Shown: positions 6,454 through 35,483 of the stretch, piece after piece
Position numbering within the stretch: the stretch's first letter is position 1
Layout: the number at the start of each line of letters is the position of its first letter
Assembly: GCA_024274915.1 (NCBI GenBank)
Contig: JAJSAC010000062.1
Location: forward strand, 1-40,199
Direction of reading: 5' to 3'
Length of the DNA: 40,199 nucleotides
From: Thermodesulfobacteriota bacterium
GTDB taxonomy: Bacteria > Thermosulfidibacterota > Thermosulfidibacteria > Thermosulfidibacterales > B14-G1
Translations under genes and position numbers: made by a program
The notes under the pieces: model-generated
Told to the model about the DNA's origin: nothing
The model's input: only the letters and a program-made list of their open reading frames with translations
Databases searched by the model: none

Positions 6454-6864
6454 TTAAAACTTGAGTTCTATGGCCCTGAAGGGGCAGACGGAGATGCAGA
6501 GTTCACAGCCTACGCACTTTTCTTTATCAAATACCACCTCCATGGTCTCCCTGTCTATGTGGAGGGCCTGGGTAGGGCAGATGGCGGTGCAGGCGCCGCA
6601 GTGGGTGCACCTCTCGTCATCTCGGGTGATATCAGCGGCCAGGTAGCGGACGCGAACCCCCAGATTTTTTAGGAACTCTATTCCCTTGTCGAAGTCTCCC
6701 TTCTCCCCGGAAAGCTCCAATATCATGATACCCTCCGACTTGGGGGTGACTTTGGCTTTCAAAATGTTGAACATAAGGTGGTGCCGGGAGTGGAGGGTAT
6801 AGATGACGGGTTGGTCCCAGGTATGCTTAGGGAACTCCAGGATCACCTTTTTGGACACTTTCAT
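6454..6864 (-). CDS. NIL domain plus 2[4Fe-4S] ferredoxin domain protein
   Basis: 136 residues. The N-terminal part (about 1-78) fits the small NIL substrate-binding-like fold also found in MetN transporters and in homocysteine/sulfur proteins of anaerobes. The C-terminal part is a bacterial-type ferredoxin with two complete clusters: Cys86-89-92-96 (CTHCGACTAICP) and Cys117-120-123-127 (CVGCELCISVCP). Such NIL-ferredoxins often accompany methionine or sulfur-insertion enzymes, but none is present here. It is the last gene of the U32 operon, 4 bp after the deacetylase-like gene. A role as electron donor to the U32 proteins is inference from linkage only. Confidence 0.9.
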   Translation of the reverse strand: MKVSKKVILEFPKHTWDQPVIYTLHSRHHLMFNILKAKVTPKSEGIMILELSGEKGDFDKGIEFLKNLGVRVRYLAADITRDDERCTHCGACTAICPTQALHIDRETMEVVFDKEKCVGCELCISVCPFRAIELKF

Positions 6865-6868
6865 GTCC

Positions 6869-7726
6869 CTAATCCTCTGTTAAGATGGCTATAACCCTAG
6901 GAATGATCCAGGTGGCCATCTCCCTCAATGCCCCTCCAGCCAAAACCACCTGGATCCTCTCCTGGCAAGCGGACCTGGCAGCCTCCTTGCAAGCCCTTCC
7001 TATCTCTAGAAAAACTCCCCTACTGAGGCCTAAGCTACCGTAATCCCCGAAGTAGGTGTCAAAACCAAAGTACCAGAAGAAAAGATCGGGTTTCCAGCTT
7101 ATAACCCTCTTCAAGGCCTTTTCCACGGTAGTGAGATAGACCCCGTCAGGATCACCCCCGTAGTAGACCTCCGTCACATCGTAGTCCACCTTGGTACCAT
7201 CGGCACTCTCCCACTCCCTATCGCAAAGACAGAGATGAAGTACGTCTGGATCGTCCATGAGCAGTTCCCGGGAACCGTCCCCATGATGGGCATCAGTATC
7301 CAGTATGGCGAAGCGCCGGGCCAATCCCTTCTCCCTCATGTTCACTATGGATATGACCACATCGTTGAAACAGCACGCGCCCCAAAAGTAGTTCTTCCCA
7401 GCATGGTGTCCTCCAGCCCCTATAAAGCAAAAGGCATTTGTAAACTCGCCCCTCATGATCCTCTCTGAAGCCTCCACCACCCCCCCTACCGAATGCCAGG
7501 CCGTGGAACAGAAGGGATCCCTCTTCACCATCTCTATCATCTCCGAAGTGTGGACTTTAAGAACAAGGGAGAGATCCACAGGTTTGCTTTCGAACACGAC
7601 CAGCTTTTCGCCTCTCTCTTGTAAGAGGGGATCTAAGGCCTCAGGGAAGTCGGCTAACCGGTTGCCCACCGTCATGTAACTCTTGCGACTAAAAGAAGGA
7701 TGGTAAAAGATGGCCGTTCTTTTCAA
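6869..7726 (-). CDS. Histone deacetylase-superfamily (AcuC-like) hydrolase
   Basis: 285 residues with the arginase/deacetylase fold. The active-site signatures GAGGHHAGKN (His107-His108) and ILDTDAHHGDG (zinc ligands Asp145 and His147) are present, and the third zinc ligand is Asp223 in GFDTYFGDYG. The C-terminal motif normally read EGGY is AGGALRE here, so the transition-state Tyr is replaced (Ala266), and the protein is shorter than typical AcuC. Bacterial relatives deacetylate acetyl-lysine, acetylpolyamines or other amides; the substrate here is unknown. It overlaps the thioesterase stop by 4 bp and is the fifth gene of the six-gene operon. It could be an amide or acyl hydrolase of the same pathway. 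The family call is firm, the activity uncertain. Confidence 0.88.
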   Translation of the reverse strand: MKRTAIFYHPSFSRKSYMTVGNRLADFPEALDPLLQERGEKLVVFESKPVDLSLVLKVHTSEMIEMVKRDPFCSTAWHSVGGVVEASERIMRGEFTNAFCFIGAGGHHAGKNYFWGACCFNDVVISIVNMREKGLARRFAILDTDAHHGDGSRELLMDDPDVLHLCLCDREWESADGTKVDYDVTEVYYGGDPDGVYLTTVEKALKRVISWKPDLFFWYFGFDTYFGDYGSLGLSRGVFLEIGRACKEAARSACQERIQVVLAGGALREMATWIIPRVIAILTED

Positions 7727-8124
7727 TCCTCCACCTCCAGGGCTTCCAGTTCCGGGGGTAGCCTCCTTGGTCTCCAGGCCCGGTCTATGGCTACCAGCAC
7801 CAGGTCTACACTACTTGAAAACTCCCCCATTTGCCAGAACTCCACCCTGAAGGTGATGGACGAATTACCTTTGGAAGCCAGGTGCACCCTGGCCTCCACT
7901 TCCATTCCATACTTTAAAGGCCTTCTGAACTCCCCTCCTGCCGCCACCACTGGAAGGCCCAGGTTCCTATCAGGATTCCTGAAAAGTTCTGAAGGCTCCA
8001 TTTCCTGGGCCCTAAAGAAGTCTTCCAAAGCCTGATGGGCGTATCTAAAGAGTGATACAAAATAGACCACTCCATAAGGATCCGTATCTCCAAACCTCAC
8101 CCAGAAAGAGGTCTTAAAAGGCAC
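7723..8124 (-). CDS. Acyl-CoA thioesterase, 4-hydroxybenzoyl-CoA thioesterase (hot-dog) family
   Basis: 133 residues, a single hot-dog domain. The N-terminal signature VRFGDTDPYGVVYFVSLFRY matches the 4HBT/YbgC group, with Asp15 as the likely catalytic residue. A central strand block (YGMEVEARVHLASKGNSSITF) completes the fold. Members hydrolyse aryl- or acyl-CoA. Its position between U32 genes and a deacetylase-like gene, opposite an aryl-CoA ligase, suggests release of a modified aromatic acid from CoA, but that is inference. It follows the upstream U32 gene by 3 bp and overlaps the next gene by 4 bp. Confidence 0.9.
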   Translation of the reverse strand: MPFKTSFWVRFGDTDPYGVVYFVSLFRYAHQALEDFFRAQEMEPSELFRNPDRNLGLPVVAAGGEFRRPLKYGMEVEARVHLASKGNSSITFRVEFWQMGEFSSSVDLVLVAIDRAWRPRRLPPELEALEVED

Positions 8125-8127
8125 GAA

Positions 8128-9087
8128 TCACACCCCTTGAGGGACCTCTTCTACCACTTCCTGGAGCACAGTGAAGGTCCTCCTGTTCCTTTGGGCGTCC
8201 CTCTTTCTGGATAGCTGGTGGAGCTGGGACAAGTAGGCGGTCATATCCACCTCCCTACCCCGGTGGAGCAGATCGTCCACCAGAGCCCTGTAGAAGGCCA
8301 CAATCTCTCCTATAAGACCCGGGGTGTACTCCCTTCCCTGGATCTTGAGGCAGTCTACCCCCGCCTCGAGGTAATAGGGAAGGTTGGAGAAAGCCAGGAA
8401 CATATCATTCCTAAGGTGGGCGTCCCTGCCGTCCTCCAGGTTCCAATGGGCCTTGCACACCCGGTGACAGTAACCGCCCCTGTTAGGAGAACCCCAGAAG
8501 TGGTTTTTCCCCTCGTCATCCCAGTACCACTGATACCGGAAGTAACTGGACATGAGGCACTTACCCAGATAGGTGAAACAGGTGTTGGAATGGAGAAATA
8601 CCTCTACACCCACGTCCACATGGCGCTTAATATCGGTGATCTCTTCCACGGTAAGGTTGCAAGGAGCCACCACCATCTCCACCCCTATCTCCTTATAAAA
8701 CTGAAGGTCCTCCACATTTATGGCGTTAGCACCTGCGCTGACGTGGACTTCCATCTGTGGATAGTGGCTTTTAACCAGATACATGGCTCCAGGATCGGTG
8801 AGGATAAGCCCCCTCACCCCCCAACTGGAGAAGCGCTCCATCTTCGCCAAGAACAGATCCATCTCCGCAGGAGAAAAATTGGTATTGAGGGCCACTCTCA
8901 CCTCTTTGCCCAAACTCTGAGCCAAGCAGTTTATCTCCCGTATCTCCCCATCAGAGAGCTCATACTGGGCTGTTCTTCTGCTCCAACCCCTAGCTCCCAC
9001 ATATACAGCATCCGCCCCAGCGGCGAATACGGCCTGGGCCATCTCCAAACTGCCGCCAGGGGCAAGGAGTGACACTCCTCTCTTCAT
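8128..9087 (-). CDS. U32-family protein, UbiU-like (third gene of U32 trio)
   Basis: 319 residues in a TIM-barrel U32 fold. It begins with the typical strand and helix (SLLAPGGSLEMAQAVFAAGADAVYVG). Four cysteines, C170-x6-C177 and C207-x3-C211 (in HSNTCFTYLGKC and RGGYCHRVC), match the [4Fe-4S] site of UbiU and the U32 'peptidases'. U32 proteins studied so far act in oxygen-independent hydroxylation: UbiU/UbiV on ubiquinone precursors, TrhP on tRNA, RlhA on rRNA. The last two depend on prephenate. Proteolysis is not supported by the sequence. The start overlaps the preceding U32 gene by 4 bp. The substrate is unknown; menaquinone organisms do not need ubiquinone hydroxylation. Confidence 0.9.
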   Translation of the reverse strand: MKRGVSLLAPGGSLEMAQAVFAAGADAVYVGARGWSRRTAQYELSDGEIREINCLAQSLGKEVRVALNTNFSPAEMDLFLAKMERFSSWGVRGLILTDPGAMYLVKSHYPQMEVHVSAGANAINVEDLQFYKEIGVEMVVAPCNLTVEEITDIKRHVDVGVEVFLHSNTCFTYLGKCLMSSYFRYQWYWDDEGKNHFWGSPNRGGYCHRVCKAHWNLEDGRDAHLRNDMFLAFSNLPYYLEAGVDCLKIQGREYTPGLIGEIVAFYRALVDDLLHRGREVDMTAYLSQLHQLSRKRDAQRNRRTFTVLQEVVEEVPQGV

Positions 9088-10037
9088 CTTTCCATACCCT
9101 CCTTCCCCACCTCCATAGGTGTGATCCTTTCACCTCCAAAGAGGCGACCAATGTACCGATGCCCCGACCGCCTGAAAAGATACCCATTACAAAACCCATG
9201 AGGAGAGAGAGCAGCCATAGACTCAAGATCGGAAGCCTCTAGATAATCGTCTATTCCCTGAGAAACCTTCTCCAGGACCCGCCTGTAAATATAGCCTATA
9301 GTCTGGATATATTCCAAAGACTCCCTGAGGGTCTGGATGTAAAAGACCCTGAAACCCCTCCAGTAAAGAGAACCCAGGTACTCAATGAGACATAAATCCT
9401 TCCCGCTGAGGGTAGCTCTGCCAATGTTCTTGAGCTTCCACTTTCCGGAGACCAACCAATAGTCCTCAAAACATACCTCTTGGCAACCCCTGTCCCCGTT
9501 GTACTCTAAAATAAAACAGTCCTCAGAAATTCCTAGGGGGATCTTTCCGTGAACCTGAAGGGTCACCCGGGTGGGAGCATGGGTCCTTATGTAGTCTATC
9601 TCTTCCAAGGACAACTCGGGATTGGGGAAGACCCTCGTCACCCCCATGGTATGAAGGAGCTTGGCCGTCTCGTGGGTGTAGAGATTTGCAAAAACTCCCA
9701 GATGAATGGGGAAAGAGAGCCCTAGCCGACGGACCATCCTCACCAACCCCAAGTTGTGGACCTCTATGCCATCCAAAGGGAGATGGGCCACATTCTCCAG
9801 CAAATTCTCCAGCCAAGGCAGATCTCTATTCCTGGGCTCGGCGTAGAGACTGAGATAGCATTTTTTACCCTCCTCTTTAGCCAGATCAAGGGCCTCTTTC
9901 ACCAATGCAGGATCGGAGGAGATGTTCCCCGGCACCATGGGACAAGTGGGATCCCCCAAATAGAGCGCATGATAAGGCGAAAGATCCAACTTCTCCAATA
10001 CATCCAAATTGGGCACGTGGGTAGAAAGCTCAAACAT
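9084..10037 (-). CDS. U32-family protein, UbiV-like (second gene of U32 trio)
   Basis: 317 residues. The architecture differs from its neighbours and resembles UbiV. There is an early Cys32 (GDPTCPM), then a cluster Cys174, Cys185, Cys189 (ISEDCFILEYNGDRGCQEVC), which parallels the Cys spacing known for the UbiV [4Fe-4S] site (one N-terminal Cys, three central). The C-terminal motif YLGSLYWRGFRVFYIQTLRE is conserved in this branch. In Escherichia coli UbiU and UbiV form a heterodimer, so pairing with one or both UbiU-like neighbours is expected. It overlaps both neighbouring genes (8 bp upstream, 4 bp downstream), indicating coupled translation. The family is clear; the substrate is unknown. 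Confidence 0.88.
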   Translation of the reverse strand: MFELSTHVPNLDVLEKLDLSPYHALYLGDPTCPMVPGNISSDPALVKEALDLAKEEGKKCYLSLYAEPRNRDLPWLENLLENVAHLPLDGIEVHNLGLVRMVRRLGLSFPIHLGVFANLYTHETAKLLHTMGVTRVFPNPELSLEEIDYIRTHAPTRVTLQVHGKIPLGISEDCFILEYNGDRGCQEVCFEDYWLVSGKWKLKNIGRATLSGKDLCLIEYLGSLYWRGFRVFYIQTLRESLEYIQTIGYIYRRVLEKVSQGIDDYLEASDLESMAALSPHGFCNGYLFRRSGHRYIGRLFGGERITPMEVGKEGMER

Positions 10038-10884
10038 AGCTCTCCTCTTCCCTTATCTTTTCTCTTATGGCCTTGACCAGAGTCCGCATCTTCTTCCATC
10101 CCATACCCCTTCCTCCTATTTTAAAAGCCCTTACCCCCCCTTGTAAAAGGGCTGGTAGCCTCTCCAGATCCCAGTAAAACTCCGGAGCCCACTGCCACTC
10201 CCTGCATCTCTGATCAAACCATTCCTGGGAACAAGTTCGGTAGCACACGCCGCTCCTCTTGGAGGAGCCTGACCATATTACCGTCCTCAAGCCAGAATTT
10301 TCCAGGTTCATATCAAAATAACTACTCATTCTGCAAAGGCCCAGCGTTGTAGCCTGACACCTTACGCCGAAGATCATCACCTCAGTCTCTACGCCCCTGG
10401 AAGACAGGGACAGGGTGATTTCTTCTATCTCTTGGACAGAGAGGTGGGGGGAGAGAATCACCCTGGAGGCACCCAGGTCTGCCCAGAAATGGGCATCTTC
10501 CAGGGAGAGGACAACGGCCCCCAAACTGGCATGGATCTCCACATGGGGATAATGCTCTTTGATTCTTATGGCCAGGAAGGGGTCGCTACAGATCACCTCA
10601 TTCACTCCCCTGAGGATAGCCTCTTTCACCACCCCCCATGCATGCTCGACCTCCATAGGGCTGGGCATCAGGTTGAAGCCGAGCAAAGCCCTTTTATCCC
10701 TCTCCTGAGCCTTTTCACAGAGTTCTTCCACGTGAAAGAGGGAAAACTCCTGGCTCCTATCAGACCTGCTCCAGCCTTTTATCCCAAAATAAAAGGCCTC
10801 TACGTCCATGCTTAGAATGCATGAAAGTACCTTAAAATCGCTACAAGGAACGATTATCTCACAACGTTTATCTGTTAGGGACAT
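10030..10884 (-). CDS. U32-family protein, divergent UbiU-like (first gene of U32 trio)
   Basis: 284 residues, a shorter and more divergent U32 protein. Candidate cluster cysteines are C176-x7-C184 (VRCQATTLGLCRMSSYF) and C214-x3-C218 (KRSGVCYRTC), the same layout as the UbiU-like gene two positions downstream, with one extra residue in the first pair. The barrel end KIGGRGM replaces the usual KIQGRE. It is the first gene of the minus-strand operon, with a strong ribosome site (AGGAGAGGGG) and a good promoter at 10914-10943. Having two UbiU-like subunits for one UbiV-like subunit suggests either two alternative heterodimers or a three-subunit complex. Confidence 0.87.
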   Translation of the reverse strand: MSLTDKRCEIIVPCSDFKVLSCILSMDVEAFYFGIKGWSRSDRSQEFSLFHVEELCEKAQERDKRALLGFNLMPSPMEVEHAWGVVKEAILRGVNEVICSDPFLAIRIKEHYPHVEIHASLGAVVLSLEDAHFWADLGASRVILSPHLSVQEIEEITLSLSSRGVETEVMIFGVRCQATTLGLCRMSSYFDMNLENSGLRTVIWSGSSKRSGVCYRTCSQEWFDQRCREWQWAPEFYWDLERLPALLQGGVRAFKIGGRGMGWKKMRTLVKAIREKIREEESYV

Positions 10885-10913
10885 CTACCCCTCTCCTATG
10901 GGAATCCATAACT

Positions 10914-10943
10914 TTTATACGGGCTTGCAATGGGCTTCGTCAA
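10914..10943 (-). promoter_or_regulatory. Promoter of the six-gene U32 operon
   Basis: On the minus strand, TTGACG (10938-10943) and TATAAA (10914-10919) are separated by 18 bp. This predicts a start near 10907 and a short leader before the ATG at 10884. A plus-strand TTGACA at 10956-10961, facing the CoA ligase gene, lacks a convincing -10. Confidence 0.6.
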
Positions 10944-11035
10944 GGGAGAGATACCTTGACACCACAAACACAATATGCTAACCCAAAACTCGGTTTGCAA
11001 CCCACAAATTTAGCAGGTCTTTTAGGAGGTGGAAC

Positions 11036-12712
11036 ATGGCCCAAATACCTGAGAACTACTTCCCGCCCAAAGAGTATTGGCCCAAGTATGTGATGCCGGA
11101 AGAGTTTGTGATGCCCGACAACACAAACTTGGCCTACTGCATGTTGGACAGACACATCGACGCAGGGAGAGGCAAGAGACCAGCGGTGATCTTTGGCGAT
11201 AGAGTCGTGAGCTACGCCGAACTCCAAGAGGCCTCATGCCGCATTGCCAGCAGCCTAGCAGATCTGGGTGTAGAGAATCAGGACAGGGTGGCCATCAGGA
11301 TGGTTAACTGCCCCGAGGCCCTGGCCGTCATCTTTGCCCTCATGAGACTGGGGGCCATCCCTGTACCCATGTCCCCCCTGTGGAGCAAAGACGAAATAGG
11401 TTTCACTCTCAACAACGCCGAGGCCAAATACATCTTTGTTTCTGCCCCCCTCATGGAAGAAGTAGAGAAGGCCAAAGACAAATTCCAATACACCCAAAAT
11501 GTTGCAGTGGTGGGCGGGAACCCCAAGGACTGGGAGGCCAAAGGATACCTCACCTATACTTCTCTGTTGGACAAAGGGGATGGCAAAGTCTTCACCGAAA
11601 AGGTGGGCATGGACGATATTGGCGTCATCCTCTATACCTCGGGAACCACAGGTCCTCCCAAGGGATGTATCCACTTTGTCAAAGAGCTCCTTTGTGAAAG
11701 TTATTTGGTAAACAAGTATGTTTGGAGATTGGTGGAAGGTGACATTCTGGGTGGCTCCGCCCCTGTCTCCTTCGCCGCCGGATTTGGCACCTTTGCCCTC
11801 ATCCCCTTCTACGCCGGTGCCACCGTGTGCCTCATAGGAAAGTTCGCTCCCGACGTCCTCCTGGAGACCGTGCAAAAACACAAGGTCACAGTCCTCACCG
11901 GCCTGCCCACGGCCTATAAAGCCCTGTTACGCTTCCCCGACTTCGACAAGTACGATATCAGCTCCCTGAGAATGGCCACCACGGGTGGCGATGCCCTGGG
12001 CGTGGAGACCTTCAATGCCTGGCATGAGAAAACGGGACAGTACATCTACGAAGGCCTGGGCGCCACGGAAATGGTCCACCTCATCACTTCTAATGCCGTG
12101 AACATGAAACCAAAGGCAGGATCCATCGGCGTGGCCATCCCCGGATTTGACATTAAGGTCCTCGACGAAAACGGCAATGAGGTCAAACCCGGCGAGGTAG
12201 GTAAGCTCACCGTGATCGGTCCTACGGGCCCCCTCTACTGGAAACCCTACGCCGACGACGAGAGACTTCTCAAGACCCAAAAGGAGTCCGTCACCGATGG
12301 AAGGGCCAAGCTGGGCGACGCCGTTTACATGGACGAGGATGGCTACATCTTTTTTGTCTCCCGGGAGTCCGACATGATCAAAAGCTCGGGTTACAGAATT
12401 GGGCCTGCCGAGGTGGAAGACGCCCTCAAGAAGCATCCTGCCGTGGCAGACGCAGGAGTCATCGGCTCCCCCGATCCCCTCAAGGGAGAGATCACTAAGG
12501 CCTACATCATCCTCAAAGAGGGTTACACCGCTTCTGAAGATCTGGCCCGGGAGTTGGTGGAATTTTGCAAAGAGTATATCGCCATATACAAGTTGCCCAG
12601 AGCAGTATCCTTCTGCGACCAGCTACCCGTTACCCCCACGGGCAAGCTCCTGCGCAGGGTCCTAAAGGAATGGGATAAGGGAGACAAGTACCCTACCATC
12701 AGGATCTCCTAA
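11036..12712 (+). CDS. Aryl-CoA ligase (benzoate/2-aminobenzoate-CoA ligase-like)
   Basis: 558-residue AMP-forming acyl-CoA synthetase of the ANL family. Visible motifs are the P-loop YTSGTTGPPKGC (about residue 200), the A5 motif GLGATEM, the A7/A8 hinge LGDAVYMDEDGYIFFVSRESD with KSSGYRIGP, and the catalytic C-terminal lysine in TPTGKLLRR. Length and the HFVKELL/NKYVWRL segment place it nearest benzoate- and 2-aminobenzoate-CoA ligases. It would activate an aromatic acid with ATP and CoA in the cytoplasm. It has a near-perfect ribosome site (AGGAGGTGG, 11023-11031) and its own terminator, so it is probably well expressed. It is divergent from the U32 operon, suggesting a shared pathway. A paralogue lies at 25320-26990. 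The exact substrate is not resolved. Confidence 0.88.
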   Translation: MAQIPENYFPPKEYWPKYVMPEEFVMPDNTNLAYCMLDRHIDAGRGKRPAVIFGDRVVSYAELQEASCRIASSLADLGVENQDRVAIRMVNCPEALAVIFALMRLGAIPVPMSPLWSKDEIGFTLNNAEAKYIFVSAPLMEEVEKAKDKFQYTQNVAVVGGNPKDWEAKGYLTYTSLLDKGDGKVFTEKVGMDDIGVILYTSGTTGPPKGCIHFVKELLCESYLVNKYVWRLVEGDILGGSAPVSFAAGFGTFALIPFYAGATVCLIGKFAPDVLLETVQKHKVTVLTGLPTAYKALLRFPDFDKYDISSLRMATTGGDALGVETFNAWHEKTGQYIYEGLGATEMVHLITSNAVNMKPKAGSIGVAIPGFDIKVLDENGNEVKPGEVGKLTVIGPTGPLYWKPYADDERLLKTQKESVTDGRAKLGDAVYMDEDGYIFFVSRESDMIKSSGYRIGPAEVEDALKKHPAVADAGVIGSPDPLKGEITKAYIILKEGYTASEDLARELVEFCKEYIAIYKLPRAVSFCDQLPVTPTGKLLRRVLKEWDKGDKYPTIRIS

Positions 12713-12933: not shown

Positions 12934-13962
12934 TCAAAACTCCCTCAACACCCTGTAAAGGGTGTCCCTCTGGGCAGGCTGGAAGCCTGCGTCTCTGATG
13001 CAGCGGATAATCTCTTCCTTGCTCATGCGGAAAGTGGCCCCGGCGGCAGCCACCACGTTCTCTTCTATCATGGTAGAGCCAAAGTCATTGGCCCCAAAGT
13101 AGAGAGCGATCTGGGCAATTTTGGCACCCTGGGTGACCCATGACGCCTGGATGTTGGATACGTTGTCCAGGAAGATGCGGGAGATGGCAAGGACCTTGAG
13201 GTAATCGACGGCGGTGGCTTTCTCTAGATGGCCCAGCTCCGTGTTGAACGGCTGGAAGGTCCAGGGGATGAAGGCGGTGAAGCCCCCCGTCCTGTCCTGG
13301 AGATCCCGAATCCGGGTGAGGTGATCAACTATGTCCTGGGGCTCCTCTATGTGGCCGAACATCATGGTGGCCGTAGTCCTGAGACCCAGCCTGTGGGCCG
13401 TCTCCATCACCTCCAGCCACCCTTCTGTAGAAACCTTATTAGGGGAGAGCCCACGCCTCACTGGGGAACTGAGAATTTCGGCGCCACCACCGGGAATAGA
13501 ACCCAAACCCACCGCCATGAGCCTTTTTATAGTCCTTTCCAGGGTGAGACCCGAGTTCTGGGAGATGTGCCAAACCTCTGGGGGTGACAATCCATGGATA
13601 TGAATGGGATACCGTGTCTTGATGGACGAGAAGAGGTCTTCGAAGTAGGTGATGTCCAGGTCCGGATGGAGTCCCCCCTGGATGAGGATGGAGGTGCCTC
13701 CAAGCACCAACGTCTCTTCTATCTTCTTGAAAAGCTCTTCTTTAGGCAGGAGATAGGCCTCTGGATGGTTTTTATCACGCCAGAAGGCACAGAAAGCGCA
13801 CCTGCTGACACAGATATTGGTGTAGTTGATATTCCGGTCTATGCAGAAGGTAACTCGGTTCTCGGGATGTAAGCGCTGCCTAACCCCGTGGGCCATCTTG
13901 CCTAAAGTGAGGAGATCCTCATGGAAGAGCTCCCGGGCCTCCCGGGGACTGATGCGCCTCAT
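12934..13962 (-). CDS. mqnC: Cyclic dehypoxanthinyl futalosine synthase (radical SAM)
   Basis: 342-residue radical SAM enzyme. The cluster motif CVSRCAFCAF (CxxxCxxC) lies near residue 52, followed by the MqnC/MqnE-type segments GGLHPDL, GLSPPEV, PGGGAEILS and the C-terminal AGATFRMSKEEI. In the futalosine pathway to menaquinone, MqnC cyclises dehypoxanthine futalosine. The ATG at 13962 overlaps the mqnA stop (ATGA), so this start is preferred over the much longer open frame that runs back through mqnA. It is the last gene of the trp-mqn transcription unit and converges with tRNA-Ser. MqnC rather than MqnE is chosen by similarity of the sequence and because the other gene fits MqnE better. 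Confidence 0.9.
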   Translation of the reverse strand: MRRISPREARELFHEDLLTLGKMAHGVRQRLHPENRVTFCIDRNINYTNICVSRCAFCAFWRDKNHPEAYLLPKEELFKKIEETLVLGGTSILIQGGLHPDLDITYFEDLFSSIKTRYPIHIHGLSPPEVWHISQNSGLTLERTIKRLMAVGLGSIPGGGAEILSSPVRRGLSPNKVSTEGWLEVMETAHRLGLRTTATMMFGHIEEPQDIVDHLTRIRDLQDRTGGFTAFIPWTFQPFNTELGHLEKATAVDYLKVLAISRIFLDNVSNIQASWVTQGAKIAQIALYFGANDFGSTMIEENVVAAAGATFRMSKEEIIRCIRDAGFQPAQRDTLYRVLREF

Positions 13963-14798
13963 TTTCCACCCTCCAGGGGCGGGAAGAATTCCAGCCCGGG
14001 TTTCTCTGGAATGAGGCCCCGGTCCACCAGAAGGGAGAAGAAAAGCTCCATCCCCCGGATGTGGCCCAGGGTGAGCTCGAAGTCGAGACCCACCAGGTAG
14101 TCCTGACACTGTCCCGGGGATAAACCCGCCTGGCGGTGGAAGAGCCGGGCCACCTCCTCTAGATGGTGGGCGCTGTAGTCCCGGGACTCCAAGAGGGCCC
14201 GCCACACCCTCTTCACCTCCCGGGGTTCCCGCTCCACCGACTCCCTGCGAACGCACCAGAGGGCAAAGACAAAGGGAAGCCCTGTCTTGGTCTTCCAGTA
14301 GGCCCCCAGATCCAGGCAATAGGGAAACACCCCGCTCTCTCTCTTCTTCAGGGCCTCGTCTCCAATGAGGAGGATGGCCTCTGTGTGGTTGTTGAGAAAA
14401 ATCTCCTCCCCCAAAACAAACTCACTGTAGATGGGCCTCACCCCCCTCTCCTCCATGATCCACTTCACCAGGGTCTTGGAGGTGAGAGAGCTCTTAGTGA
14501 GCCACACCTCCCTCCCCGACAGCTCCTCCAGGGGACGTCTAGAGAAGAAGAGGACGCTCTTCACCTCCCCGTCGGCCCCGATGCAGAGGCGGGGCAGGAT
14601 GTAGTAGTCCCGCCAGTGGCGGGCGTACTCCACACAGGAGATCACGGAGATGTCCAGCTCCCCCCGAGCCAGCATCTCGTTGAGCTGGGAGGGGGTGCCC
14701 TCCACCATGATCCACTCCTCCCCAAGGGCCACAGCCCCCGTCTCCAGACCGTAATAGACAGGGCGGGTGTTCAGGTATCTGATCCTACCGATCCTCAA
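13959..14798 (-). CDS. mqnA: Chorismate dehydratase
   Basis: 279 residues with the periplasmic-binding-protein-like fold of MqnA. The start [19 protein letters not shown] and the segments [27 protein letters not shown] and LLIGDEALK are diagnostic. It dehydrates chorismate to 3-[(1-carboxyvinyl)oxy]benzoate, the entry step of futalosine-type menaquinone synthesis, so it competes with TrpE, encoded upstream on the same strand, for chorismate. It overlaps mqnE and mqnC by 4 bp each. Confidence 0.93.
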
Positions 14799-15892
14799 TG
14801 GTAAACCCTCAGCCTGTTGTACAGAGCATCCCTTTCTACGGGGATCTTGCCTGCTTTACGAATGAGCTCAATGAGACGTCTCTTTGACACAAACTGGGGT
14901 GAAGTGGCCCCCGCCATGTGGGTGATCTTCTCCTCTACCACGGTACCCTCCAAGTCATCTGCACCAAAAGCCAGGGCCACCTGAGCCGTCTTCTCGCCCA
15001 GCATCACCCAGTAAGCCTTTATATGGGGAATATTGTGGAGCATGAGGCGGGCCACGGCAATGGTCTTCAAGTCGTCCACACCCGTGGTGCCCTCAGCAGA
15101 GATGGGCGTGTTTCCGGGATGGAAGGCCAGAGGTATGAAGGCCTGGAAACCTGGTGCTTCGTCTTGGGCTTCCCTGAGCCTGATGAGGTGCTCCACCCTC
15201 TCCTGGAAGGTTTCCACATGACCGTAAAGAAGGGTACAGTTAGACTTTATGACCAGACGATGGGCCTTTTTGTGGATCTCCAGCCAACCCTCGCTGGAGG
15301 TCTTTTTGGGGCACAGAGCCTCCCGAATCCTGGGAGAGAAGACCTCGGCCCCTCCCCCGGGCATGGAGTCCAGACCCGCTTCCTTCAAACGGGAGAGGAC
15401 CTCTTCCACTTTTAGTCCCGATATACGAGCCATGTGCTCCACCTCCACAGCTGTGAAGGCCTTGATGTGAACTTGGGGAAAAGTGTCTTTCAGTTTCTTC
15501 ACCATCTCCAGATAATACTTATAGGGCCACTCAGGATGGAGACCCCCCACTATGTGAAGCTCCCGGGCCCCTTGCTCCACAGCCTCAGCAGCCCTGGTCA
15601 GAATCTCATCCAGAGTGAGTTGGTAGGCCCCCCTCTCCCCTTTCCTACGATAGAAGGCACAAAAGCGGCACTGGTTGACGCACAGGTTGGTGGGGTTGAT
15701 GTGGCGGTTTACCACGAAGAAGGCATATGGACCGTTAACCATCCGAGACATATGGTCAGCCACGTAGCCAAGAGCGAAAAGGTCCCTGGTCCGATAGAGG
15801 GCGAGGCCTTCCTCCAGGCAGAGGGGCTCACCGCGAGAGACCTTCTCGGCTATGGGTATGAGGGTCTTGTCCTCGAACCAGTCCAGGGTCAC
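14795..15892 (-). CDS. mqnE: Aminodeoxyfutalosine synthase (radical SAM)
   Basis: 365 residues. The radical SAM motif [10 protein letters not shown] lies near residue 71, followed by [26 protein letters not shown] and [14 protein letters not shown], typical of MqnE. It joins the MqnA product to S-adenosylmethionine to form 6-amino-6-deoxyfutalosine. It lies between the RNA methyltransferase gene and mqnA with 4-bp overlaps on both sides. MqnB and MqnD, needed to complete the pathway, are not in this window. The distinction from MqnC rests on N-terminal sequence and motif context. Confidence 0.92.
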
Positions 15893-16842
15893 TCCTCCTT
15901 CCGTATCCTGGCCACAAAAAAGCCCCCCACTTCGTTCCTGTGGGGGTAAATCCTTATAGCCCTTTCCACCTGGGGGTTATACACCTCTCCCTCCCAAGAG
16001 GAAAGGCCCGGGGCCCCGTTCAAGCCCGGGAGGGAGATCTCTTCCAGGTGGCAGGGATAATTATCCAGCAGGTGGGTAAGGACCCCCTCGTTCTCCTCGG
16101 GGGCAAAGGTACAGGTAGAATAGACTACAACACCCCCCGGTTCCGTGGCCTTGAAGGCAGATATCAGGAGGGCCTTCTGAGTCTCAGCCAGGCGCCGGTA
16201 AGACCCATGACGCCAGTTGTGCCAGGCCCGAAAGCTCTTCCTCACCGTTCCCTCGGCAGAGCAAGGAGCGTCCACCAGGACCACCTGGAAGAACCCGGGA
16301 AGAAGCCTGCCAAAGCGGCGGCCGTCCATGGTGGTTACCAGGCAGTTCACCACCCCCAGGCGATCCAGGTTGTAGGTGAGGGCCTTGATCCGATGAACGC
16401 TCACGTCGTTGGCCACTACGGCCCCAGTGTTCTCCATCCTCTGAGCAGCGTGGGTAGTCTTGGACCCCGGGGCGGCAGCTATGTCCAGAATCCTCATTCC
16501 AGGCTTTACATCGGCCACCTCTACGGGCACCATACTGGAGGCTTCCTGCACATAAAACTCCCCCAGAAAGTGCTCTAGATAGTTGCCCAAGGCCTCTTCC
16601 TCATCCAGATTCTCTATCCAGTACCCCCAGGGACACCAAGGCACAGGGGTGAGCTCCAGGCCCCTCTCTTCCAACCCGGCCCTTATCTCCTCGGGGTCTC
16701 CTTTGAGAGTGTTCAAGCGAAGGCTGGGCTTCAAGGGCCGCAGCAGAGCATCCAGAAAAGCCTCCACCTCCAATCCCAGAAGCTTCTCGTACCGTTCCCT
16801 CAAACCCTCAGGAATCTCCACCATGGACAGGGGAATTAGCAC
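15889..16842 (-). CDS. RsmB/RsmF-type (NOL1/NOP2/Sun family) RNA m5C methyltransferase
   Basis: 317 residues. An N-terminal recognition segment (about 1-75) precedes a Rossmann methyltransferase domain. The SAM-binding motif is [14 protein letters not shown] (about residue 117), and the two catalytic cysteines are in DAPCSAEGT and YSTCTF. It methylates cytosine C5 in rRNA or tRNA; which site cannot be told. A downstream RNA-binding domain found in full RsmF is absent. The start is ambiguous: GTG at 16842 or ATG at 16824, neither with a strong ribosome site. It is inserted between trpA (27 bp upstream) and mqnE (4-bp overlap). Confidence 0.9.
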
Positions 16843-23870: not shown

Positions 23871-24024
23871 GTTTAGGATAGAGGGGAGTACAAATTGCCC
23901 ATGATCCGGGGGGATGGCACTTTTAGTGTCTGATTTTGCAATGTGGGAGGGGGCCTGTTCGGCCTAGCGGTCCTTGACAGGGGAGGGTTTTGGTGAAGAT
24001 TGTTAAGGATGGGAGGTGAAGCAC

Positions 24025-25245
24025 ATGGATAGGGAAGCCTTTTTTAAAGAGTTGGCGGAGGAGACAGAGAGCAAGATTCTTTTGGTGGTGCTGGATGGCT
24101 TGGGAGGGCTTCCAGGAGAAGGGGGTAAAACGGAACTGGAGGCTGCCTGGACCCCTAACATGAACCAGTTGGCTTCTAGGTCGGCCCTAGGGCTTACCCA
24201 CCCCATATCTTACGGGATTACCCCTGGTTCTGGCCCTTCTCATTTGGCCCTTTTTGGTTATGACCCCTTTCAGTATGAGATTGGTAGGGGGGTTCTGGAA
24301 AATCTTGGGCTGGAGGTAGAGCTCAAGAAGGGAGATGTGGCGGTTAGGGGCAACTTTTGCACCGTTGAGGATCAGAACGGTCACCTAGTGGTGGTGGACC
24401 GTAGGGCAGGGAGGATCCCTACGGAGAAAAATCGGGAGCTTTGCTCCCGGCTCCAGGAGGTCATAAAGGAGGTTCAGGGGGTGGAGGTCCTCTTCACACC
24501 TGGTATGGAGCACCGTTTTGCCTTGCGCCTCAGGGGCGACGGGCTTGCTGGTTGTTTAGAGGATACCGATCCTCAACACGAGGGCTTTGAACCCTTGCCC
24601 CTCAGGGCCACCTGTTCCCAGGGAGAAAAGACGGTGGCCGTGGTGGAGGAGCTTCTAAGAAGGGTGAGGGATGTCCTTAAGGGTGAAGAACGGGCCAACT
24701 ATGTTCTTCTTAGAGGGTTCTCCGAGGTGCCTCACATTCCTTCTATGTATGAACTCTTCAAACTCAAGGCTGCGGCTATAGCCACCTATCCCATGTATCG
24801 AGGATTGGCCCGGCTGGTGGGCATGGACCTTCTGCCATTGGAGGGCATGAAGCTGGAGCACGAACTGGAAACCCTAAAGAGACACTGGAAGGACTACACC
24901 TTCTTTTATTTGCATGTAAAGAAGACGGACTCCTATGGTGAGGATGGCAACTTCTGGGCCAAAGTGAAAGTGATCGAGGAATTCGATAGGCTTCTCCCCA
25001 AGATCATGGCCCTCAAACCCGAGGTGTTGGTCATTACAGGAGACCATTCTACTCCCAGCAAGCTCAAGGCCCACAGCTGGCACCCCAACCCCTTCCTTCT
25101 TTATTCGCCTTATGTGAGATGGGGAGGTGAGCAGCTTTTTTCTGAGAAGGCCTGTGCTTGGGGGACTCTAGGCCAGTTTCCGGCCGTGGAGGCTGTGCCC
25201 CTCATGATGGCCCATGCCCTGAAACTCAAAAAATTTGGGGCTTGA
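24025..25245 (+). CDS. apgM: Cofactor-independent phosphoglycerate mutase, archaeal type
   Basis: About 406 residues of the alkaline-phosphatase superfamily. The N-terminal metal-binding motif is [39 protein letters not shown] holds the catalytic Ser region, and the C-terminal motif [19 protein letters not shown] carries the remaining Asp/His metal ligands. It interconverts 3- and 2-phosphoglycerate in glycolysis and gluconeogenesis. The ATG at 24025 is chosen because GGGAGG lies 8 bp upstream; a GTG at 24016 overlaps that site. Third-position base use (G/T-rich) is unlike that of plus-strand genes left of 23.5 kb, consistent with inversion of this block. Confidence 0.94.
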
Positions 25246-25319: not shown

Positions 25320-26990
25320 ATGGAAAGGCTTATAGAAGAACATCACTTACCCCCTAAGGAGTTGTGGCCTCAATTTGTCTTTCCCGAGGAGATGATTTTC
25401 CCCTCCAACGCCAACCTGGCTTATTCCCTACTGGATCGTCATGTCATGGGTGGCATGGGGGACCAAATAGCAGCTTACTTCTTTGATAAGAAAGTGACCT
25501 ACAGAGAGTTGTACGATGGCTCTTTGAGAATAGCCAATGCCCTAGCGGAGCTTGGGATCAGAAAGGGGAGCCGGGTTGCCTTTATGCTTCTCAACTCCCC
25601 AGAGGCCTTAATGGTGAACTCGGCTATCTTGAGGATGGGGGCTATTCCTGTGCCCGCTTCGCCCTTTTGGTCTCCAGATAATATGGTTTTCATTCTCAAT
25701 AACGTGGAGGCCTGTTGCCTGGTAGTGAGCTACTCTTTTTATGGGAACGTGCGCAGGGTCAGAAACGGGTTGCACATGCTGGAACACCTCATATTGGTGA
25801 GGGCTCCTTCTCATGTGGTTAAGGAGGAGAGATGTTTCTCCTTGGAAGAGATCCTGGCCCAGGGGAGCGACGAATATTTCCTGGAGAATGTGGAGCTGGA
25901 CGACGTGGGCGTCATCCTTCACACCTCGGGAACCACAGGACGGCCTAAGGGTTGTGTCCACTTTGTTAAGAACATCCTCACCGAATGCTACCTGGTTAAT
26001 AAATACGTGTGGCGCCTCACCATTGGCGATGTAATAGGAGGCTCGGCTCCCGTCACTTTTGCTGCGGGATATGGAACCTTTTGCCTTATTCCGTTGTGGG
26101 CCGGAGCCTCCGTCTCCCTGGTTCCCAGATTTGTGCCCGAGGAGGTCTTGGACGCCATAGCTCGTCACCGGGTCACAGTACTTACAGGTCTCACCAACAC
26201 CTATCAGAAGCTTATGGAGTCTCCCGAGTTTGATGGCTACGACCTTTCTAGCCTAAGGCTTTGCACTACTGGGGGTAGCTCCTTGGAAGTGAGGGTCTAC
26301 CAGGAGTGGCTGAACAGGACGGGGCACTCCCTGATGGAAGGGTTGGGGGCTACGGAGTTGCTTCATCTGGTCACTTCCAACGCCGTGGGTATGAGGGTGA
26401 AACCGGGTTCCGTAGGCGTTCCCATACCTGGCTTTGAAATCAGGGTGGTGAATGAAGAGGGAAAAGATTGCAGGCCCGGGGAGATGGGTAGGATGCTGGT
26501 AAGAGGTCCTACGGGTGCTCTCTACTGGAAGCCTCATGCGGCTGATGGGCGCCTTCTTAGGGCTCAGAAACGAACGGTGATAGACGGCTACACCTTTCTG
26601 GGAGATATAGTTATCAGGAACAAGAACGGTTACTTCTACTATATCTCTCGGGAGGAAGATCTTCTCTTTAAAGAAGGCCACAAGATAGGTCCCATGGAGA
26701 TTGAAGAGGTTTTGAAGGATCATCCTTTGGTGGAGGATGCTGGGGTTGTGGAAACAGAAGGAGATGGGAGGGAGAAGATTTTGGCTTTCGTCTCCCTCCC
26801 TCCCCACATCGCGCCTTCTGAGGATTTGAAGGGGTTTCTGATGGACTTCTGCCGTAAGAAGTTGGTCTCCTACCAAGTCCCCGACGAGATCCACTTTGTG
26901 GATTTTATTCCCAGGACCCCTGCGGGGAAGCCTCTGCGGTGGATGCTGAGAAAGTGGGAGTTGAAAGAGCAGAAAGGGAAGAAGGCCTAA
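25320..26990 (+). CDS. Aryl-CoA ligase paralogue (benzoate/2-aminobenzoate-CoA ligase-like)
   Basis: 556 residues, clearly a paralogue of the ligase at 11036 over its entire length. The P-loop HTSGTTGRPKGC is near residue 201, followed by GLGATEL and the C-terminal lysine in TPAGKPLRW. The A8 hinge reads EEDLLFKEGHKIGP instead of the usual DMIKSSGYRIGP, losing the standard Lys and changing the loop, so kinetics or substrate may differ. It activates an aromatic or related acid with ATP and CoA. It is 74 bp after apgM with a GAGGAG ribosome site, probably co-transcribed with it, and its stop overlaps the convergent hemC stop by 4 bp. Confidence 0.87.
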   Translation: MERLIEEHHLPPKELWPQFVFPEEMIFPSNANLAYSLLDRHVMGGMGDQIAAYFFDKKVTYRELYDGSLRIANALAELGIRKGSRVAFMLLNSPEALMVNSAILRMGAIPVPASPFWSPDNMVFILNNVEACCLVVSYSFYGNVRRVRNGLHMLEHLILVRAPSHVVKEERCFSLEEILAQGSDEYFLENVELDDVGVILHTSGTTGRPKGCVHFVKNILTECYLVNKYVWRLTIGDVIGGSAPVTFAAGYGTFCLIPLWAGASVSLVPRFVPEEVLDAIARHRVTVLTGLTNTYQKLMESPEFDGYDLSSLRLCTTGGSSLEVRVYQEWLNRTGHSLMEGLGATELLHLVTSNAVGMRVKPGSVGVPIPGFEIRVVNEEGKDCRPGEMGRMLVRGPTGALYWKPHAADGRLLRAQKRTVIDGYTFLGDIVIRNKNGYFYYISREEDLLFKEGHKIGPMEIEEVLKDHPLVEDAGVVETEGDGREKILAFVSLPPHIAPSEDLKGFLMDFCRKKLVSYQVPDEIHFVDFIPRTPAGKPLRWMLRKWELKEQKGKKA

Positions 26991-34092: not shown

Positions 34093-34506
34093 ATGGAGAA
34101 TGGGATAGAGACACTGAAAGTCCGCATCGCTTCCAGCCCCCTGGTTCGTTTTTTGGGCATCAGGCTGGAAGACCTGAAAGAGGGTTACGCACGACTGGCC
34201 ATGGAGGTGGAGGAGAAACACCTGAATAGTCTGGGCACCCTTCACGGCGGGGTCATGGCCACTCTCAACGATGTGGCCTGTGGTGTGGCCATAAACACCG
34301 TACTGGTACCCCAAGCCACCATCCTCAGCCTGGACCTCCGGGTGGAGTTCATAGACACCCTCTCCTCGGGCACCGTCTATTGCGAGGGTTTTCTCACCCA
34401 AAAGAAGCACACCGTGGCCTTCGCCCACTCCCGCCTCACTGATGAAAAGGGGAGGCTCCTCTCCACGGCCTCGGCCACAGGTTTCATTAAAAGGTTGACA
34501 CCGTGA
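34093..34506 (+). CDS. PaaI-type hot-dog thioesterase
   Basis: 137 residues. The PaaI/HGG signature LNSLGTLHGGVMATLNDVACGVA is at about 48-70, where the HGG and Asp form the thioesterase site. DLRVEFIDTLSSG and the C-terminal strand pattern complete a single hot-dog domain. Relatives hydrolyse phenylacetyl-CoA or other acyl-CoAs; the substrate here is not known. It overlaps the downstream methyltransferase start by 4 bp (GTGA), so the two are translationally coupled. Its C-rich third positions return to the pattern seen left of 23.5 kb. Confidence 0.88.
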   Translation: MENGIETLKVRIASSPLVRFLGIRLEDLKEGYARLAMEVEEKHLNSLGTLHGGVMATLNDVACGVAINTVLVPQATILSLDLRVEFIDTLSSGTVYCEGFLTQKKHTVAFAHSRLTDEKGRLLSTASATGFIKRLTP

Positions 34507-35483
34507 ATGAAGAAATAGAGAAGGCGTTAAGGGAGTTCCACCGGTGGGGTTTTGCTTTTGCCCCCACAGCCATAACGGCAACGGCTGCTCAGCTGGACCT
34601 CTTTCTCCACCTGGAAAGCCCCATCACCCCCCAGGAGCTGGCCAAGAAAAAGGGGATACCTATCAGGGGCCTTCTCCGCATCCTCAGGGCCCTGGCCCGC
34701 CTGGACATCCTGGCAGAAGAGGGCAACACCTACCGCATCAACCCCACCCTGGCCCCCCTCTTCTCCCCTTCTTCGCCCTTCTATCTGGGCCCCTTCTTCC
34801 TCCACACCTGGAAACTCCAGGAGAGATGGCAGGAATTGCCCCAGGTGGTGACCACGGGCAAGCCCTTACCCCGGGGGGAAGATCCCGACTTTCCCGTCAC
34901 CCTGGCCCGGGGCCTCTTCGCCGTCCACTGGCTCCAGGCCCTGGAATTGGGAGAAAAGGTCTCCATACCCTCCGGCACCGTCCTGGATGTGGCCGGGGGC
35001 TCGGGGGTGTGGAGCGCAGGTATCCTCAAGAGCCATCCCCAGCTCAAAGGCACAGTCCTGGACTTGCCCCAGGTGGTAGAGAGGGGAGCCAAACCCATCC
35101 TGGAAGAGATGGACCTCCTCCAGCGCTACACCTTCATCCCCGGGGACATGTTCCAGGTGGACTGGGGCCAGGGTTACTCGGCGGCGATCCTGGGCCACAT
35201 CTGCCACGCCCTGGGGCGAGACGAAATTCTGTGGCTCATGGAGAAGGCCAGAACCGTTCTGACTCCCAGCGGCAAGCTCATAGTCATAGACTTCCTCACG
35301 GACCCCCAGGACCCCTTCTCCGCCATCTTCTCCATAAACATGCTGGTGGCCACGGAAAAGGGAGACGTCTACGCCCTGGAGGAGTATACCCAGTGGATGG
35401 AGGAGGTGGGGTTCTCCACCCCGAAGGTCATTCCCATGAAAGGTCCCTGGAAGAGCGCTGCTATAGTGGCCACCCCAGCCTAG
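34503..35483 (+). CDS. O-methyltransferase-like SAM-dependent methyltransferase
   Basis: 326 residues from GTG 34503. An N-terminal winged-helix dimerisation domain (about 1-95: ITATAAQLDLFLHL, ITPQELAKKKGIPIRGLLRILRALARLDIL) precedes a Rossmann SAM domain with VLDVAGGSGVW (about residue 162), VLDLPQVVE and PGDMFQVDWG. This is the plant-OMT/hydroxyneurosporene-methyltransferase architecture. Some relatives in anaerobes are not simple O-methyltransferases, so the acceptor is left open. It is coupled to the upstream thioesterase and overlaps the convergent archaemetzincin gene by 23 bp. Confidence 0.83.
   Translation: MNEEIEKALREFHRWGFAFAPTAITATAAQLDLFLHLESPITPQELAKKKGIPIRGLLRILRALARLDILAEEGNTYRINPTLAPLFSPSSPFYLGPFFLHTWKLQERWQELPQVVTTGKPLPRGEDPDFPVTLARGLFAVHWLQALELGEKVSIPSGTVLDVAGGSGVWSAGILKSHPQLKGTVLDLPQVVERGAKPILEEMDLLQRYTFIPGDMFQVDWGQGYSAAILGHICHALGRDEILWLMEKARTVLTPSGKLIVIDFLTDPQDPFSAIFSINMLVATEKGDVYALEEYTQWMEEVGFSTPKVIPMKGPWKSAAIVATPA

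Follow-up and report, generated by a model that had tools for sequence, protein, structure and literature searches.

Three clustered U32 proteins linked to a CoA ligase: a candidate system for O2-independent modification of CoA-bound acids

The window analyzed here, a 40,199-nt stretch from a Thermodesulfobacteriota bacterium (contig JAJSAC010000062.1, positions 1 to 40,199; genome G000), contains a six-gene operon that encodes three proteins of the peptidase U32 family (U32A, U32B, and U32C, hereafter the trio), a hot-dog thioesterase, a histone deacetylase (HDAC)-fold enzyme, and a NIL-domain ferredoxin. An AMP-forming acyl/aryl-coenzyme A (CoA) ligase, LIG1, is encoded divergently. We propose, with a probability of roughly 0.4, that the trio forms a heteromeric [4Fe-4S] complex, probably an O2-independent hydroxylase of a CoA-activated acid; the set as a whole points to an undescribed O2-free route for modifying CoA-bound acids, perhaps aromatic ones. 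The tie between the trio and the divergent ligase, suggested by an initial annotation made from the sequence, was borne out by linkage in three phyla and by co-occurrence in sets of 386 and 95 genomes, and we regard this linkage as highly probable.

The U32 enzymes, O2-independent hydroxylases, form a young class whose described substrates are ubiquinone precursors and RNA (PMC11574389, PMC6747719, PMC6599085). If our proposal is correct, a trio beside a CoA ligase extends these enzymes to CoA-bound metabolites. It would also offer a soluble system for assaying prephenate chemistry and a function for genes conserved in a phylum that is probably Methylomirabilota.

Linkage of the trio to a CoA ligase

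Genome G000 and eight relatives make up all sampled genomes of the phylum, and they belong to one order. The trio, whole or cut at contig ends, was present in eight of these nine genomes and was not found in G007 (71% complete). LIG1 was divergent from and adjacent to U32A in seven of the eight; in the eighth, G005, LIG1 and the trio occupied separate short contigs. The six-gene order was intact in G000, G003, G004, and G008 and was interrupted by contig ends in G001, G002, G005, and G006. Since the operon genes are conserved at 44-95% identity among the relatives, the arrangement is not a product of chance. A U32C scan of 84,980 species genomes, keyed on two short own-lineage motifs and blind to distant versions, returned six loci (two labeled 'Aquificota bacterium' and four 'bacterium').

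We then looked beyond the order in 386 genomes. The U32B profile scored 408-630 bits within the order and 282-365 bits in four other genomes (G361, G232, G080, and G350), and the next-best match, at 129 bits, belonged to a TrhP-like class of about 400 residues. LIG1 matches at E<=1e-120 occurred in all nine genomes of the order (in G007 through a paralogue); the only other genomes with such a match were G080 (55% identity), G232, and G361. Beyond the order, U32B was thus found in 4/377 genomes and a LIG1-type ligase in 3/377, all three inside the four, so that the ligase was present in 3/4 U32B carriers vs. 0/373 non-carriers (Fisher p = 4.5e-7, an optimistic value because G232 and G361 share a genus, leaving two independent lineages). 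The HDAC-like profile exceeded 300 bits only in six genomes of the order and in G080, with the next match at 107 bits.

On the G080 contig, A, B, and C are accompanied by a hot-dog thioesterase, a MoxR ATPase, and an HDAC homologue with 57% identity; some 11 kb further along, LIG1 lies with two class III CoA-transferases (CaiB1 and CaiB2), an IclR regulator, and small proteins. The thioesterase that follows this trio is of a different subfamily, matching TIGR00369 at 76 bits and, more weakly, EntH, MenI, and PaaI. U32B was present in two of the three sampled genomes of this phylum. Past the IclR/CoA-transferase cluster, at 14707-16679 of locus L167, we noted a gene that is LarC-like by eye and its neighbor.

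In the phylum of G361, which we take to be probably Methylomirabilota, 28 of the 95 genomes carry U32B, which comes in two types. Type 2 has the A-B-C arrangement (U32B about 255-290 bits), and type-1 clusters (U32B about 360-394 bits) combine U32B with two or three C-like proteins, an NMT1/SsuA-like protein, and a phosphoenolpyruvate (PEP)-synthase-like protein, as contigs permit. The PEP-synthase-like protein is 850-986 residues long, and a HisC-like aminotransferase is encoded nearby (L079, L121, L123-L126, L139). Among 16 type-2 loci fetched by U32B, ten have the ligase at most about 12 kb from the trio (L080 with L169, L083, L127, L128, L130, L131, L132, L133, L137, and L140). Those without it are L122, L129, L135, L136, and L138, where the trio is near a contig end, and L134, with none within 6.5 kb. 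The ligase is also carried by L186 and L187, fetched by CaiB1. The order at L133 is IclR, CaiB2, CaiB1, a cysteine-rich protein, a small protein, ligase, A, B, C. At E<=1e-180, the ligase was present in 18/21 genomes with type-2 B vs. 13/74 others (Fisher p = 1.5e-8, taking no account of kinship and counting G411, a partial U32B match, as non-type-2) and in 0/6 type-1-only genomes.

The CoA-transferase pair is accompanied in three phyla by two small families, of about 130 residues and of 138-163 residues (cysteine-rich), neither of which matched Pfam or NCBIfam. In a hand-picked set of 35 genomes, CaiB1 was found at E<=1e-80 in 7/9 genomes of the order (48-49% identity; not in G006 or G007), with no match in G361, G232, or G409. 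A second locus of G000, on contig C69, encodes CaiB1, CaiB2, homologues of the cysteine-rich and small proteins, and two metallo-beta-lactamase-fold proteins with tetratricopeptide repeats, so this genome holds most of the set that is clustered elsewhere. The C69 gene order is repeated in G002, G003, G004, and G008, as contigs permit.

Could the ligase and the trio be co-inherited neighbors in a few lineages, with no common reaction? The 95 genomes include 13 with the ligase and no type-2 U32B and 3 with the reverse, type-1 clusters occur without the ligase, and related genomes are non-independent observations. Set against this are the three phyla, the varied local arrangements, and the exclusive co-occurrence in the 386-genome survey, and we consider such passive co-inheritance very unlikely.

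The operon itself (10884-6454, minus strand; Table 1) consists of six packed open reading frames (ORFs) whose positions in the ORF list of the window agree with those first assigned. The initial annotation had described overlaps or gaps of at most 4 bp behind a good promoter; the distances, read from U32A to the NIL-ferredoxin, are -8, -4, +3, -4, and +4 bp, and the promoter reads TTGACG-N18-TATAAA. A consensus scan had left it unlisted because its rule demands T at the last -10 base. Both hexamers are also present in G001 and G002. The divergent intergenic region (10885-11035) contains strongly conserved blocks, e.g., TGTGTTTGTGGTGTCAAGG in G000, G001, G003, and G004, which are possibly an operator or paired promoters. 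The operon proteins exceed the Pfam gathering cut-offs (22.4 bits for Peptidase_U32, PF01136).

Table 1. Features of the operon and its surroundings (window positions), with examples of the small families (locus positions)
Feature	Position	Strand	Assignment
U32A, 284 aa	10030-10884	-	PF01136 90.4 bits; A clade; Cys C176/C184/C214/C218
U32B, 317 aa	9084-10037	-	PF01136 105 bits; B clade; Cys C32/C174/C185/C189
U32C, 319 aa	8128-9087	-	PF01136 139 bits; C clade; C170/C177/C207/C211, E162
Hot-dog thioesterase (4HBT_2, YbgC-like)	7723-8124	-	PF13279 47 bits
HDAC-fold enzyme	6869-7726	-	PF00850 (Hist_deacetyl) 117 bits
NIL domain + 2[4Fe-4S]-type ferredoxin	6454-6864	-	NIL PF09383 56.5 bits; Fer4 61 bits
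LIG1, AMP-forming acyl/aryl-CoA ligase	11036-12712	+	PF00501 269 bits; divergent from operon
Operon promoter, TTGACG-18-TATAAA	10914-10943	-	TTGACG 10943-10938, 18-bp spacer, TATAAA 10919-10914, read from sequence
Small families, examples in L179	511-900, 3317-3922		
Small families, examples in L167	8454-8843, 9866-10279		

Phylogeny and cysteines of the U32 proteins

The initial annotation had asked whether the trio falls within characterized U32 groups. In a FastTree phylogeny of 114 proteins (285 columns, midpoint root, local SH-like supports), it stands outside the TrhP, RlhA, UbiU, and UbiV clades. The 20 B proteins of all lineages form one clade, sister to the seven UbiV proteins (local support 0.997). 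The 44 A and C proteins form another (0.999), near but outside the seven UbiU proteins, within which A (own and G080 lineage; 0.97) and C (0.98) are separate. The union of all A proteins including type 2 is supported at only 0.625, making the type-2 'A' assignment less certain. UbiU and UbiV are each monophyletic, and they as well as TrhP and RlhA lie apart from A, B, and C. Members from three phyla are present in every one of the A, B, and C clades. The NCBIfam scores were far below cut-off: 70.7 (A) and 131.9 bits (C) vs. 440 for UbiU, 57 bits (B) vs. 275 for UbiV, and 78.6 to 148.8 bits for the trio vs. 534 for TrhP.

All four predicted cluster-binding cysteines are present in the own-lineage A, B, and C proteins (6/6 each). 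The initial annotation had assigned a UbiV-like cysteine pattern to B and UbiU-like patterns to the other two. The first assignment stood, as the UbiV cysteines C39, C180, C193, and C197 are all present in 20/20 B proteins. The second did not. UbiU has the pattern CX6CX16CX38C (PMC6747719), and its fourth ligand, C232, is absent from all A and C proteins (0/8 own and G080-lineage A, 0/8 such C). The own and G080-lineage A and C proteins instead carry the general U32 set, the four TrhP-type cysteines with a longer spacer (C176-X7-C184-X29-C214-X3-C218 in U32A; C170-X6-C177-X29-C207-X3-C211 in U32C). The TrhP residues E162, C170, and C177, described as essential (PMC6599085), are retained in own A and C, including 6/6 own C proteins. 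In type-2 A, Glu replaces the first cysteine in 9/9 proteins, and in type-2 C, the third is missing in 7/8, with Asp in its place in six of those.

The U32C structure model has a mean pLDDT (predicted local distance difference test) of 74.4, with values below 50 over most of residues 168-229, the cysteine loop, and we therefore drew no cluster geometry from it. The top Foldseek match of the model was the U32 protein 5d88; the U32C profile had no significant match among PDB sequences, and U32C had none in viral contigs.

These placements bear on two other roles. Should the trio hydroxylate RNA (tRNA U34 or 23S rRNA) in the stead of TrhP or RlhA, the neighboring genes would be incidental. A U32 search of G000, which is 93% complete, matched only the three operon proteins, with no TrhP or RlhA found, and Bacillus subtilis has a tandem U32 pair, YrrN/YrrO (PMC6599085). 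However, the trio's clades are apart from those of TrhP and RlhA, and RNA hydroxylation leaves the links to a ligase and CoA-transferases in other phyla unexplained; we consider this role very unlikely.

A role in isoprenoid or other quinone synthesis (ubiquinone, methyl-plastoquinone, or an unusual menaquinone) would fit the sister relationship of B to UbiV, and more quinones may await discovery, as one report proposes (PMC13386864). We nevertheless find it highly improbable. SCP2/UbiT was found in 0/9 genomes of the order, and two futalosine-pathway proteins, MqnC and MqnE, are encoded in the window and score above the NCBIfam cut-offs, in line with the futalosine-type menaquinone route first annotated there; the putative MqnA (13959-14798) had no NCBIfam match at 1e-10. 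Neither a CoA ligase nor a CoA-transferase is known from the O2-independent ubiquinone route. Ubiquinone synthesis in particular was rejected on the distinct clades and the SCP2/UbiT result, consistent with the earlier view that the trio is not ubiquinone machinery, and the refutation checks set by the initial annotation, where run, were negative. A menaquinone link through the mqn neighbors was weakened, as, among the stretches fetched, mqnC and LIG1 were neighbors in no genus but that of the window. A role in anaerobic benzoyl-CoA (Bam) degradation lost support as well: the BamA ring hydrolase (TIGR03200) was above cut-off in 0/19 genomes.

Proposed reaction and partner enzymes

In the scheme that we infer, which extends to complex formation, clusters, substrate, reaction, oxygen donor, electron direction, and a role for the HDAC-like enzyme, LIG1 would attach CoA, as a thioester, to a carboxylic acid that is probably aromatic. 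A hetero-oligomer of U32A, U32B, and U32C, like UbiU-UbiV and with one Fe-S cluster per subunit, would then act on this thioester in an O2-free reaction, most likely a hydroxylation in which prephenate donates the oxygen. The NIL-ferredoxin would exchange electrons, and the thioesterase would free the product or remove wrong thioesters. In other lineages, the CoA-transferase pair could move CoA from product to new substrate. More tentatively still, the trio may represent a new, three-subunit class of U32 Fe-S hydroxylases that are O2-independent, use an organic oxygen donor, and act on CoA-activated small acids. This anoxic counterpart of aryl-CoA oxygenases would belong to an undescribed pathway with the ligase, the paired CoA-transferase, and the two small families in three phyla.

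Known U32 relatives use prephenate, whose oxygen enters ubiquinone (PMC11574389). Prephenate should be available, since prephenate dehydratase is present in 16/19 genomes of the carrier groups, including 10/10 near-complete ones. The formulae balance as RH + prephenate = ROH + phenylpyruvate + CO2 + 2[H]. Should the reaction follow this balance, the 2[H] released requires an electron acceptor, possibly the ferredoxin, and by this arithmetic the electron flow first annotated, with ferredoxin as donor, may be backwards.

The ferredoxin could instead serve as a donor if the trio catalyzes another redox reaction on a CoA thioester, such as an IspH-like reductive C-O cleavage in which an open-site Fe-S cluster takes off a hydroxyl group. 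In favor of this are the presence of a ferredoxin gene in the operon, the likening of U32 enzymes to IspH (PMC11574389), and the type-2 homologues that are one cysteine short in A and in C. But own A and C retain all four, and hydroxylation is the reaction to which the characterized members of this branch of the U32 family are linked (PMC11574389, PMC6747719, PMC6599085), so that we regard a reductive reaction as unlikely.

LIG1 scored 299.4 bits against the benzoate-CoA ligase family TIGR02262, below the cut-off of 375.25. Its PDB relatives include the anthranilate-CoA ligase 4wv3 and benzoate-CoA ligases, and the top score was for 9g79, an acetyl-CoA synthetase. The operon thioesterase was likewise below cut-off for TIGR02799 (40.7 vs. 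141 bits). In the HDAC-like enzyme, the Zn ligand positions D145, H147, and D223, located by alignment to HDAC6, are retained together with H107/H108 in 6/6 homologues including that of G080. Members of the histone deacetylase family have a catalytic Tyr in a GGY motif; here, Ala or Ser follows GG in 6/6 homologues, with no catalytic Tyr at that position. Its model (pLDDT 76.8) best matches the HDAC structure 5ji5 (TM 0.72), and amidases such as propanil hydrolase match too.

Several points weigh against hydroxylation of a CoA-activated aromatic acid. Both the substrate and the reaction are inferred, and 'aromatic' is a family-level guess from sequence, given that LIG1 is under the benzoate-CoA ligase cut-off. 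With Glu for the first cysteine of type-2 A and the third lost from type-2 C, the cluster chemistry may differ. No LIG1 homologue was near any of the 7 type-1 loci examined, and the 13 and 3 discordant genomes noted above count here as well. Prephenate would also be a costly oxygen donor for catabolism, yet some clusters lie by IclR regulators; the cost suggests biosynthesis, and the regulators point the opposite way.

Elsewhere in the window, LIG2 (25320-26990), another ligase with 47-48% identity to LIG1, comes right after an apgM-type phosphoglycerate mutase gene (24016-25245). This apgM-LIG2 pair is also present in G004 and in G007, the latter having yielded neither LIG1 nor the trio. At 34093-35483, a gene for a PaaI-like hot-dog thioesterase is followed by one for a methyltransferase distantly like BchU, and this pair adjoins apgM-LIG2 in G004.

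Comparison with known systems

In open PubMed Central papers, we found no description of a U32-ligase cluster or of U32 proteins together with CoA-transferases and Methylomirabilota. Among the nearest characterized systems is UbiU-UbiV, the O2-independent ubiquinone hydroxylase that works with UbiT and is a [4Fe-4S] heterodimer (PMC6747719). In both systems, a UbiU-side and a UbiV-side U32 protein are encoded together, and B retains the four UbiV cysteines. The trio differs in having three proteins in clades of their own, in the lack of C232 in A and C, in the absence of any UbiT/SCP2 found, and in its partners, a CoA ligase, a thioesterase, and an HDAC-like enzyme. With TrhP/YegQ and RlhA, the trio shares PF01136, and the E162, C170, C177, C193, and C197 positions are present in own A and C. 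It is about 30% identical to TrhP-like proteins and shorter than TrhP (284-319 vs. 453 residues; E. coli trhP is 1362 bp), has X29 rather than X15 between the second and third cysteines, and keeps other gene company.

A U32 group with partly conserved cysteines and no assigned function or operon, PepU32#6, has been described with the reference D5MIQ1_9BACT (PMC6747719, citing Kimura et al.). The cysteines of the type-1 and type-2 clusters are likewise only partly conserved. This accession is one of Candidatus Methylomirabilis oxyfera, and the trio's U32 clade may be PepU32#6. LIG1 resembles the benzoate-CoA ligase family TIGR02262 (299 bits) and is unlike it in falling under the 375-bit cut-off. 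The O2-dependent aryl-CoA pathways (Box, Paa) combine a ligase, oxidation of the CoA thioester, and a hot-dog thioesterase. The set described here has the same outline with U32 Fe-S proteins in the place of the oxygenase, a resemblance of analogy, not homology.

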